From Shouchella oshimensis (GTDB taxonomy: Bacteria > Bacillota > Bacilli > Bacillales > Bacillaceae_D), in NCBI RefSeq assembly GCF_002019765.1, contig NZ_KV917380.1, forward strand, positions 362,707 to 426,706: DNA of 64,000 bases. Reading direction: 5' to 3'. The notes under the pieces are model-generated. The model searched no databases. It saw nothing but the letters and a program-made list of their open reading frames with translations, and was not told the origin of the DNA. A program made the position numbers and the translations under genes. Of the stretch, positions 22,181 through 53,131 are shown piece after piece (the stretch's first letter is position 1; each line of letters begins with the position of its first letter).

Positions 22181-23467
22181 ATGCATAAACTGCTAATAAA
22201 AGGTGGGCAAACCCTTGAAGGTTCTGTGCAGATTAGTGGCGCAAAGAATAGTGCCGTTGCACTTATTCCAGCTGCTATTCTAGCAGATAGTCCAGTTGTA
22301 ATTGATAACTTACCATCCATATCTGACGTTGAGCTTTTAGCAGAGCTTTTACGTGAGATTGGTGGTGAAGTTACAATGGACGATCAACAGATGGAAATTA
22401 AACCAGAAAACATGGTTGCTATGCCATTGCCAAATGGACGAGTAAAAAAATTACGCGCATCGTATTATTTAATGGGCGCCATGCTAGGGAAATTTAAAAA
22501 AGCTGTAATTGGCTTGCCTGGTGGTTGCAATTTAGGTCCAAGGCCGATTGACCAGCACATAAAAGGATTTGAAGCGCTCGGCGCTCGTGTAACTAATGAG
22601 CAGGGAGCCATTTATTTGCGTGCGGATGAACTACAAGGAGCGAAGATTTACCTTGACGTTGTTAGCGTAGGTGCAACCATTAATATTATGCTTGCTGCCG
22701 TTAGAGCAAAAGGGCAAACCATCATTGAAAATGCTGCAAAAGAACCAGAGATTATTGATGTAGCCACACTTTTAACAAGCATGGGTGCTAAAATTAAAGG
22801 TGCTGGAACGAATGTCATTCGAATAGAAGGCGTGAATCATTTAAAGGGCTGTACCCACTCTATTATCCCAGACCGGATTGAAGCCGGTACATATATGATA
22901 ATGGCTGCGGCAATGGGACAACGGGTGCAAATTGATAACGTTATTCCAACTCATTTGGATTCCATCACAGCAAAGCTTAGAGAGATGGGCACGAAGGTTG
23001 AAGAAAAAGATGACCAAATGATTGTGGAGGGAATGTTGGATAAAAAAGGTGTCGACATTAAGACGCTTGTTTATCCAGGTTTTCCTACGGATTTGCAGCA
23101 ACCATTTACAAGCCTTCTAGTTAGTGCCAAGGGTACTAGCATAGTAACGGATACGATTTATGATGCCCGGTTTAAACACGTAGATGAACTCAGGCGCATG
23201 GGGGCTAACGTCAAAGTGGAAGGCCGATCGGCCATTGTGAATGGGCGTTCTCCGTTGCAAGGAGCTAATGTTCGTGCTAGTGATTTACGGGCAGGAGCTG
23301 CGCTTATCGTAGCGGGATTGATGGCTGAAGGAATTACAGAGATATCTGGTCTTGAGCACATTGATCGGGGTTATGAACATTTAGAAGAGAAACTTCGAAA
23401 CTTAGGTGCCATTGTATGGCGCGAAGAGTTAAACGAAGAAGAAATTGAGCAAGTGAATCAATCATAG
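22181..23467 (+). CDS. murA2: UDP-GlcNAc 1-carboxyvinyltransferase, second paralogue
   Basis: Adds enolpyruvate from PEP to UDP-GlcNAc, the first committed step of peptidoglycan synthesis. The 428-residue protein has Lys22-Asn23 (GAKNSA) and the fosfomycin-target Cys116 ([11 protein letters not shown]). It sits between tal and glpX, like MurZ/MurAB of B. subtilis; the primary MurA is encoded at 51833. AAGGAAGGG precedes the ATG. Confidence 0.93.
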
Positions 23468-31653: not shown

Positions 31654-32100
31654 ATGTCATTAACGGTTCGGAAAATGGAAGAAACGGACGTGTTGGCGGT
31701 TCAACATTTATTTGCACGGGTTGGCTCTGCTAAAACGCCGAATCAAATAGATAGTTTTGTTGTGGTGGAAAATGAAGAAGGAACTTTAGTAGGCACAGTT
31801 GGGTTAGACAAAGTGCTAGATCTAGGGCTGTTACGCACCCTTGTTATAGACAGTCAAAAAACCCATGCTATGGCGGCTGTTGAGTTTATTCAATTAGCAT
31901 TAGCGTTTGCGCATTCTGAAGGCGTAAACCATGTGTATGCTCTAAGCAGCGGAAAGGCGTCTTTATTTGAGCCATTAGGCTTCCAACAAATTTCTAAACG
32001 ATTAATACCTGAAGAAATCAAGCAATTGGAGCATTATCAACATATATCGAGCATAGATGACACGATTGCATGGTCTTATAACTGTTCGCATATTGTGTAA
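31654..32100 (+). CDS. ywlB: GNAT N-acetyltransferase (YwlB)
   Basis: A 148-residue acetyltransferase with a degenerate GNAT core (GTLVGTVGLDKVLDLGLLRTLVID, then AVEFIQLALAFAHSEGVNHVYALSS and FEPLGFQQISK). The usual R-x-x-G-x-G/A loop is not evident, being replaced by DSQKTHAMA. Its place between spoIIR and ywlC matches YwlB. AAGGAGGACG precedes the ATG. Substrate unknown. The transcript probably ends at the terminator at 32175. Confidence 0.75.
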   Translation: MSLTVRKMEETDVLAVQHLFARVGSAKTPNQIDSFVVVENEEGTLVGTVGLDKVLDLGLLRTLVIDSQKTHAMAAVEFIQLALAFAHSEGVNHVYALSSGKASLFEPLGFQQISKRLIPEEIKQLEHYQHISSIDDTIAWSYNCSHIV

Positions 32101-32112
32101 GACTTGTGGATT

Positions 32113-32417
32113 TGTGTATAAGTATTGTGTATAAGCGCGGAAAAGTTCAATTATAGCTGAATTTATCAACTTATAAACAGTTTATCCACAGCGGTGGATA
32201 AACTGTTTTTTCTTTTGATGCAATCGATAGATTAGTCTGATAAAATAGAGTAAACCTTTATAGAATAGGCATTTGAAGATTAGGATAAAAAAGTTTCGTT
32301 AGAATGAAAGAGGCGAACAGATCGTGAGTTATAAACAGACAAAGATTTGGAATGTGGATAACGATGATATGAAGAAGGGGGAACCCCTATTATTACAAGA
32401 ACCGACAATGTGGATAA
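32113..32417. promoter_or_regulatory. DnaA-box cluster around the ywlC start
   Basis: Five perfect TTATNCACA boxes are visible: TGTGTATAA at 32113-32121 and 32126-32134, TTATCCACA at 32182-32190, and TGTGGATAA at 32353-32361 and 32409-32417, the last two inside ywlC. One-mismatch sites lie at 32171-32179 and 32193-32201. B. subtilis has a known DnaA-box cluster at ywlC that modulates replication initiation; this looks like its counterpart. Confidence 0.8.
32175..32211 (+). terminator. Terminator after ywlB containing DnaA boxes
   Basis: AAACAGTTTATCCAC pairs with GTGGATAAACTGTTT around AGCG, followed by T residues. Both arms contain DnaA-box sequence. Confidence 0.85.
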
Positions 32418-33346
32418 GGGATAATAAGCTTATTGCGTTTCCTACTGAAACGGTATATGGCTTAGGGGCAAACGCGCTATCTGATGAAGCGGTCAGCAAA
32501 ATCTTTTATGCAAAAGGAAGACCGAGTGACAATCCACTTATTGTCCACATAGGTGAGAAAGAACAGTTGAACGAATTAGTAGAGGACATTCCTGAAGTGG
32601 CCCATCGTTTAATGCAGGTTTTTTGGCCTGGGGCGCTTACGTTAATTTTTAAAGCAAAGCCGGTCTTATCAACTAATGTCACTGCAGGTTTAGAAACGGT
32701 AGGTATACGAATGCCGTCTAATCCGGTGGCAAGAGGTTTTTTAAAAGCGTGTCAGCTACCTATTGCCGCTCCTAGTGCAAATCAATCAGGTCGTCCCTCA
32801 CCAACAACAGCAGCCCATGTTCTACAGGATTTGAACGGGAGGATTGATGGGATCATTGACGGGGGGAAAACAGGCATTGGGTTAGAATCAACCGTATTAA
32901 GCATCGTTGAAGAGACTCCTGTACTCTATCGTCCTGGAGGGGTGACGAAAGAGGACATTGAAGAGGTTATTGGACCAATTGATGTGGATAAAGCGTTGTT
33001 AAGCACGAAGGAACAACCTAAATCACCTGGTATGAAGTATACCCATTATGCACCTGAAGCAGATGTGTATATAGTGGAAGAGCCAAAGCAATTTCATTCT
33101 GCTATTCAACGGGCAAAAGCAAACGGTAAGCGGGTAGGTGTAGTGGCAAGTGAGCTGTATAAGGAAGCAGATGAATCGTTTGTGGTTCACTCCGTACAGG
33201 ACTTAGCCCAATCGTTCTATTATTCACTTCGTTTATTTGATGAAAAAGCTGTATCGGTCATTTTAGTCGAAGCCGTTTCAACAAAAGGTGTTGGGGCCGC
33301 TATAATGAACCGGCTTGAAAAAGCAGCGGGTGGAAAACGTATATAG
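32324..33346 (+). CDS. ywlC: L-threonylcarbamoyladenylate synthase
   Basis: Makes threonylcarbamoyl-AMP from threonine, bicarbonate and ATP for the t6A modification of tRNA. The 340-residue protein has the YrdC core (FPTETVYGLGANA, KGRPSDNPLIVH, PSANQSGRPSP) and the C-terminal Sua5 extension (SPGMKYTHYAPEADVY to the end), so it is the long form. The start GTG 32324 gives an N-terminus aligning with B. subtilis YwlC. Two perfect DnaA boxes lie inside its first 31 codons. Confidence 0.93.
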   Translation: MSYKQTKIWNVDNDDMKKGEPLLLQEPTMWIRDNKLIAFPTETVYGLGANALSDEAVSKIFYAKGRPSDNPLIVHIGEKEQLNELVEDIPEVAHRLMQVFWPGALTLIFKAKPVLSTNVTAGLETVGIRMPSNPVARGFLKACQLPIAAPSANQSGRPSPTTAAHVLQDLNGRIDGIIDGGKTGIGLESTVLSIVEETPVLYRPGGVTKEDIEEVIGPIDVDKALLSTKEQPKSPGMKYTHYAPEADVYIVEEPKQFHSAIQRAKANGKRVGVVASELYKEADESFVVHSVQDLAQSFYYSLRLFDEKAVSVILVEAVSTKGVGAAIMNRLEKAAGGKRI

Positions 33347-51832: not shown

Positions 51833-53131
51833 TTGGAAAAAATCATTGTCCGTGGCGGCAACAAGCTGCACGGCTCCGTGAAGGTAGAGGGTGCAAAGAA
51901 CGCCGTCCTACCTGTAATAGCAGCATCAATTCTAGCGGAAAACGGAAAAAGTGTTATCGAGGAAGTACCATCTCTTACAGATGTTTATACAATGAAAGAA
52001 GTTTTGACAAATTTAAACGTAGCAGTTGATTACGAAGATGGCCGTTTCGTTGTTCATGCGGATCGTACGCTTAAAACAGAAGCACCATTTGAATACGTTC
52101 GTAAAATGCGAGCATCTTTCCTAGTAATGGGTCCTTTACTTGCACGTGTTGGTCGCGCAAGAATTGCATTACCTGGTGGATGTGCCATTGGATCACGCCC
52201 AATTGAGCAACACCTAAAAGGGTTTGAGGCGATGGGTGCAACAGTTGAAATTGGAAATGGTTTCATTGAAGCGCGCATTGATGGAAAGCTTCAAGGAACA
52301 AAGATTTATCTTGATTTTCCAAGTGTTGGTGCAACAGAAAACATTATGATGGCTGCTGTTCTTGCAGAAGGAACAACAATCATTGAGAATGTCGCGGAAG
52401 AGCCGGAAATTGTTGATTTAGCCAATTATTTAAACGCAATGGGTGCGAAAGTAAGAGGCGCTGGCACAGGCGTTATTAAAATTGAAGGTGTAGCTGCACT
52501 TCATGGTGCGGTTCACTCAGTTATTCCTGATCGTATTGAAGCAGGGACATTCATGGTAGCTGCTGCTATTACAGGTGGAGATGTGTTTGTTGAAGGTGCC
52601 ATTGCTGAGCATATGCGTCCCCTTGTAGCAAAAATGCGCGAAATGGGTGTAGAGATCCAAGAAGGTGAAACAGGACTACGTGTTATTGGTCCTGAAGTGC
52701 TTAAGGCTGTTGATATTAAAACAATGCCTCACCCAGGCTTCCCAACAGATATGCAAGCACAAATGATGGCGTTGCTTATCCGAGCTGAGGGTACAAGTGT
52801 AGTAACTGAAACGGTTTTTGAGAATCGTTTTATGCACGTTGAAGAGTTCCGTAGAATGAACGGAAATATTAAAATTGAAGGCCGTTCTGCGATTGTATCT
52901 GGTCCTACGTCTTTACAAGGTGCAGAGGTTGGTGCAACAGACTTACGTGCTGGGGCGGCATTAGTTATCGCAGGATTAGTAGCTGATGGATATACTCGTG
53001 TTACAGAATTAAAGCACTTAGATCGTGGCTACGTTGGTTTAACGGAGAAACTTAAAGCATTAGGTGCTGATATTGAACGAGTGGAAGAGCAATTAGAGAA
53101 TGAATTTGAAAAAACAGCAGAATTGCTATAA
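51833..53131 (+). CDS. murA: UDP-GlcNAc 1-carboxyvinyltransferase, primary
   Basis: First committed step of peptidoglycan synthesis. The 432-residue protein has Lys22-Asn23 and the active-site Cys117 ([11 protein letters not shown]). TTG 51833 is the start, set by GGAGGGG at 51820-51826. It sits before spoIID like murAA of B. subtilis; a second paralogue is encoded at 22181. A terminator follows. Confidence 0.96.

Follow-up and report, generated by a model that had tools for sequence, protein, structure and literature searches.

A conserved DnaA-box array running from the ywlB-ywlC gap into the first codons of ywlC

INTRODUCTION

Why would a tRNA-modification gene retain an array of DnaA boxes, part of it inside its own codons, if a sink for the replication initiator could sit anywhere? 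The ywlC locus of Shouchella oshimensis raises this question. Extra-oriC DnaA-box clusters of Bacillus subtilis, the ywlB-ywlC region among them, were reportedly described by Okumura et al. in 2012, and the ywlC site itself is already known in that species. For this region, PMC4447404 gives 9 predicted boxes in 300 bp and an in vitro Kd of 0.25 μM for ATP-DnaA and 0.45 μM for ADP-DnaA. Depictions of extra-oriC sites mostly place them in the gaps of a single model species; the present analysis follows the ywlC site through the order and into other parts of the class.

RESULTS

Gene context of the array

The window, which is the whole 64-kb stretch of S. oshimensis DNA that was analyzed, contains ywlC at 32324..33346 on the plus strand, with a GTG start at 32324. 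Its match to the tsaC/Sua5-type profile TIGR00057 (E value of 3.3e-60, 202.7 bits against a cut-off of 123.2) identifies the product as L-threonylcarbamoyladenylate synthase of the tRNA t6A pathway. Upstream on the same strand, an ORF at 31654..32100 encodes a GNAT acetyltransferase whose best profile match, the ArsN2 acetyltransferase family at 58.8 bits, falls under the curated cut-off, and this ORF is preceded by spoIIR, for which the profile match lies above its cut-off. We take the order spoIIR-ywlB-ywlC to be that of B. subtilis, and the name ywlB was assigned from this gene order. The array sits between ywlB and ywlC. Elsewhere in the window, ORFs 22181-23467 and 51833-53131 resemble, by eye, paralogous UDP-N-acetylglucosamine enolpyruvyl transferases (MurA-like).

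Prediction of a ywlC promoter in the gap returned 3 promoter-like matches compared to 2.9 in shuffles and gave no location; the part of the gap between the two modules of boxes is poorly conserved. The ribosome-binding stretch at 32311-32320 before ywlC is conserved to the same degree as the boxes (0.93) in an otherwise variable gap.

Boxes of the array and their rank in the genome

Perfect DnaA boxes (TTATNCACA) number six in the window, all inside 32113-32991, and five of the six fall within 305 bp (32113-32417), as the sequence-only reading had stated. Two lie on the minus strand at the upstream edge of the gap, at 32113..32121 and 32126..32134 (both TTATACACA), with mean pairwise identities within the genus of 0.94 and 0.81, the latter being the lowest among the eight boxes of the interval. 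A third, on the plus strand at 32182..32190 (TTATCCACA, identity 1.00), is accompanied by one-mismatch boxes placed 11 bp ahead of it at 32171..32179 (TTATAAACA, plus strand, 0.94) and 11 bp past it at 32193..32201 (TTATCCACC, minus strand, 0.89). The last two of the five lie within ywlC, downstream of its start codon and on the minus strand, again as proposed beforehand: the box at 32353..32361 spans codons 10-13 (Asn-Val11-Asp12-Asn) and is perfect in 35/41 family genomes, and that at 32409..32417 spans codons 29-32 (Met-Trp30-Ile31-Arg) and is perfect in 33/41. A further one-mismatch box (TTATAAACA) on the plus strand at 32329..32337 spans codons 2-5 (Ser-Tyr-Lys-Gln); this place holds a one-mismatch box in 39/41 family genomes and exactly TTATAAACA in 29/41. 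The interval thus carries three one-mismatch boxes, one more than the two claimed initially. At its upstream border, a degenerate box with two mismatches (AAATCCACA, 32106..32114, minus strand) is strongly conserved within the genus, with a mean pairwise identity of 0.98 for the nine-base windows starting at 32106-32108. The sixth perfect box of the window, further into ywlC at 32983..32991 on the minus strand, recurs at the same place only in G000, G002, and G003 among 41 family loci and is probably incidental.

Could such a cluster arise by chance in A+T-rich DNA? Boxes with a single mismatch are frequent everywhere (95 in the window, where 78 were expected), and 100 shuffles of the whole window gave a mean of 3.3 perfect boxes, with at least six in 9/100. 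The total for the window is therefore not unusual; the crowding is. Genome-wide, three pattern searches found 234 perfect boxes (95+62+77) in 4,058,377 bp, and the ywlC group was the sole place with five in 310 bp and the densest in the genome. This ranking covers perfect boxes only; the number of boxes does not measure affinity, and boxes at oriC can be imperfect. When 234 sites were placed uniformly at random in 20,000 runs, four in 310 bp occurred in 4/20,000 and five never did. The sequence-only reading had put the chance density far lower than that observed and had suggested a genome scan allowing one mismatch; the scan for perfect boxes ranks ywlC first and reveals no multitude of equal clusters. 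Chance is further opposed by the distance from box 32182 to box 32353, which is exactly 171 bp in 10/13 genus genomes (172 bp in 2 and 147 bp in 1), and by the lack of boxes at comparable loci outside the group, described below. Chance or base composition was rejected as an explanation and has a vanishingly small probability.

The runner-up, five perfect boxes in 319 bp at C1:153985-154303 (L073 2486-2804), lies between htrA and rlmH and corresponds to peak 8 of B. subtilis, the yydA (rlmH) region. Unlike the ywlC array, it is wholly in the gap, with no box seen in coding sequence. Box groups also flank dnaA (C1:122635-123984, minus strand) on both sides. The B. subtilis sites checked in this genome were ywlC, rlmH (yydA), the oriC pair, and gcp; for gcp/tsaD (C1:956568-957494) no perfect-box group was found, the nearest perfect boxes being at 950125 and 952835. 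Two three-box groups were also noted, one at C1:3415416-3415534 (L074) in the gap between convergent ORFs, with part of it inside the end of the second, and one at C1:3657738-3657828 (L075) between a GNAT ORF and a CsaA-like ORF; both are absent from the top B. subtilis regions in Table 1 of PMC4447404.

Conservation within the genus and family

Conservation of box positions in relatives, which the sequence-only reading had predicted, was evident in the genus alignment, where the eight boxes of the interval had a mean pairwise identity of 0.94, compared to 0.55 for the remainder of the gap outside the stem described below and 0.57 for early non-box coding sequence. This alignment comprises 12/13 genomes, omitting G002, with YwlC identities to S. 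oshimensis of 57-89%. The two in-gene perfect-box places are 56 bp apart in 13/13 genus genomes, although in L037 and L042 one of the pair carries a single mismatch. Spacing within modules is 11-12 bp. Helical phasing between the gap module and the gene module was considered and is unsupported, given the three distances seen in the genus and other distances elsewhere in the family.

Across the family, at least three perfect boxes were present in 33/41 loci (counted in the 450 bp before the codons for PTETVYG), and a single genome, L069, had no perfect box. A 65-bp pattern consisting of the two in-gene boxes matched 29/41 family genomes and lay at ywlC in 29/29; elsewhere in the 41 genomes it had 2 further matches.

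Conservation beyond the family

The survey was extended to 80 genomes outside the family, drawn from 150 order genomes, and to 40 drawn from 151 class genomes, with perfect boxes counted in the same 450 bp upstream of the PTETVYG codons. This anchor was missing in 8/201 loci (L127, L137, L142, L147, L158, L160, L228, and L235, of which L147 was anchored later) and in 2/40 other-class loci (L244 and L246). Loci with at least three perfect boxes amounted to 63/78 in the order outside the family and 17/38 in other orders of the class, while 3/78 and 11/38, respectively, had none. Taken with the family counts, these numbers indicate conservation by descent and uphold the suggestion that the site is conserved well beyond B. 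subtilis. In the other-class set, at least three boxes were found in 13/24 loci with a G+C content of <50% and in 4/14 at ≥50%, and 9/14 of the latter were without any box. Of the 17 other-class loci with a box at −90..0, there are two (L245 and L277) in which this box directly precedes the start codon. The 53 anchored comparison loci, from Clostridia, Negativicutes, unassigned Bacillota, and one Paenibacillus, had 0 boxes in 53/53. Twenty-two named loci were counted as Bacilli by record titles and sequence, including L094, which is titled Roseburia.

Boxes inside ywlC, taken as the last 90 bp before the anchor, occur in 40/46 other families of the order. Named loci with in-gene boxes include Halalkalibacter hemicellulosilyticus (L087, which has the same N-terminal peptide as L056 and may be one genome with it), Litchfieldia salsa (L085), Cytobacillus eiseniae (L088), Peribacillus deserti (L084), and Lysinibacillus yapensis (L103); Pontibacillus salipaludis (L082) and Sporolactobacillus sp. 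(L096) are without perfect boxes. In L. yapensis, the boxes at −79/−49 retain the 30-bp spacing of the −88/−58 pair with a three-codon shift. Locus L292 (G357), from one of 44 genomes in the genus of G176 within the same order, is B. subtilis-like and has its ywlC on the minus strand at 3.79 Mb. Its perfect boxes lie in the gap, directly ahead of the start codon (one box), and within the codons for Leu-Ser-Thr (one box). For this lineage, the earlier idea that some boxes had moved into codons was rejected, since in-gene boxes are shared with these other families and with L292.

This distribution bears on whether the array is purely a DnaA sink that titrates the initiator. Reviews (PMC5295017 and PMC13220808) report that joint deletion of six extra-oriC clusters in B. 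subtilis leads to early initiation, and the S. oshimensis array, located ~271 kb from dnaA/oriC, would be replicated early, as suits a sink. A sink, however, needs no fixed host gene, whereas the array stays at ywlC, with at least three boxes, in 39/46 other families of the order and does so at a cost in codon choice; moreover, gcp, another B. subtilis host, is without a perfect-box group here. We consider a pure sink unlikely.

Codon-level constraint in ywlC

Relative to the P of PTETVYG, in-gene boxes recur at −88 and −76 (both x-Val-Asp-Lys/Asn), −69 (Leu-Ser-Thr, encoded TTA TCC ACA), −58 (x-Tyr-Pro-Gln), and −32 (x-Trp-Ile-x). Such a pattern might be a by-product of protein-level constraint, with W-x-V-D, Y-P-Q, and W-I-K kept for enzyme function; the peptide words are indeed conserved, and the Asp in the region is also found in relatives without boxes. 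Codons were resampled with the protein fixed in 65 genera, using one genome per genus and pooled, not per-genome, ywlC codon usage as the null. The observed 87 boxes compare with 10.0 expected (standard deviation 3.0, maximum 20 in 500 draws), in a set in which genera are not independent. Among compatible peptides, a box was present in 33/39 at −88 (3.6 expected; 6/39 without), 13/17 at −76 (1.7 expected), 20/25 at −58 (3.8 expected; 5/25 without), and 13/13 at −32 (0.5 expected). The first 270 bp past the anchor also showed an excess, with 19 boxes compared to 1.9 expected. A reversed control motif gave 3 compared to 0.2 expected, which is above expectation in tiny numbers, and the best excess among 300 letter-permuted motifs was 5.9, compared to 77 for the DnaA box. 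In a motif-free search, the 8-mers with the top excess were DnaA-box fragments.

Val11 is GTG in 40/40 family genomes, which places it at rank 1 among 111 near-invariant columns in 41 genomes, and Ile31, at rank 2, is ATA in 34/38; in the gene body ATA is rare (76/732 Ile codons). In the genus of G176, Leu-Ser-Thr is present in 44/44 genomes and a perfect box in 34. Protein-level constraint is further opposed by the occurrence of the same nine bases on both strands in differing frames and by solved homologues (five best matches), which align only from about residue 22-34; the N-terminal part of YwlC is thus not catalytic core. We regard protein-level constraint as a very improbable explanation of the boxes. 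The Trp at residue −10 occurs in 51 loci over three sets, 45 with the box and 6 without, so Trp has some protein-level tolerance of its own; as judged from these loci, it is linked to the box yet not wholly explained by it. By these comparisons, the in-gene boxes are held at the DNA level, beyond protein and codon use.

Overlap of boxes with the ywlB terminator

Boxes 32182 and 32193 are an inverted pair that forms the arms of a predicted intrinsic terminator hairpin of ywlB (32175..32208, plus strand), with 15 pairs, a T tail, and a folding energy of −23.1 kcal/mol (z −7.6; 0/200 shuffles as low). By the criteria used here, a terminator was found in the gap of 30 of 65 genera; in these, the stem holds a box in 27 and an inverted box pair in 25, compared to a box in 34% of terminators under random placement.

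The repeats could be an RNA-level feature, forming mRNA hairpins (terminator or leader) to which DnaA is irrelevant. The strength of the terminator formed by the gap pair and its recurrence among genera agree with this, as does L044, representing one genus, in which the stem is retained with both arms altered to TTGTCCACA/TGTGGACAA. Hairpins do not account, however, for the two in-gene perfect boxes, which have the same orientation here and cannot pair together, or for boxes 32113 and 32126, which are kept though far from any stem. The kept sequence is always near the DnaA consensus, and boxes are present in many of the 35/65 genera without a detected terminator. An RNA feature as the sole explanation is very improbable.

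DISCUSSION

Together, these comparisons point to the ywlB-ywlC gap and the first ~32 codons of ywlC as one DnaA-binding array. We consider it probable, at roughly four chances in five, that this DnaA site represses ywlC and also holds DnaA, with its downstream half in coding sequence. DnaA would occupy the gap boxes, which flank the ywlB terminator with a helical spacing of 11 bp, as well as the in-gene boxes, which would lie across the ywlC promoter from them and might be bridged to them. As free DnaA-ATP rises, ywlC would be repressed, by occlusion or by a roadblock, and the occupied boxes would keep some DnaA off oriC. DnaA represses ywlC in B. subtilis (PMC12112137); the PywlC-lacZ fusion given there covers 240 bp ahead of the start codon and 73 bp past it and would include the in-gene Leu-Ser-Thr box. 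We give regulation more weight than titration, since the array has remained at ywlC despite a coding cost.

With the downstream half of the array in the ywlC frame, selection for DnaA binding would fix codons and bias some amino acids in the N-terminal extension toward the words Val-Asp-Lys/Asn, Trp-Ile-Lys/Arg, Leu-Ser-Thr, and Tyr-Pro-Gln. More tentatively, and with less than even confidence, we propose that the N-terminal extension of YwlC in Bacilli has been shaped mainly by the DnaA array, that the inverted boxes serve as the ywlB terminator, and that DnaA couples replication status to tRNA t6A synthesis and thereby to translation. If so, one site would combine the roles of promoter control, terminator, protein coding, and sink for DnaA, and it would offer a case, open to testing, in which a replication initiator constrains protein sequence. 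Our literature search found no description of the coding overlap, its codon and amino acid effects, the terminator role, or the spread of the site, though Okumura et al. (2012) may mention in-gene boxes or conservation.

The S. oshimensis site is, as the sequence-only reading held, a counterpart of the B. subtilis ywlC site, with several boxes in about 300 bp of the same gap between the same gene pair; the B. subtilis region is peak 6 of PMC4447404. In the B. subtilis-like locus L292, as here, the ywlB terminator has a stem made of gap boxes. The in-gene sets differ, being at codons 2-5, 10-13, and 29-32 here and at the Leu-Ser-Thr codons in L292, and binding and repression were measured in B. 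subtilis, whereas the S. oshimensis site is known from its sequence. The datA locus of Escherichia coli is likewise a group of DnaA boxes outside oriC and reduces the level of free or active DnaA (PMC5295017), but it works differently, stimulating DnaA-ATP hydrolysis with IHF; B. subtilis is without IHF and datA, according to a 2026 review (PMC13220808). In dual-coding "duons," codons and amino acids are constrained by a motif for DNA binding, and codon choice in ywlC is likewise constrained beyond protein and codon usage. In contrast to duons, the factor here would be a replication initiator, and its motif recurs at set codon positions throughout an order.
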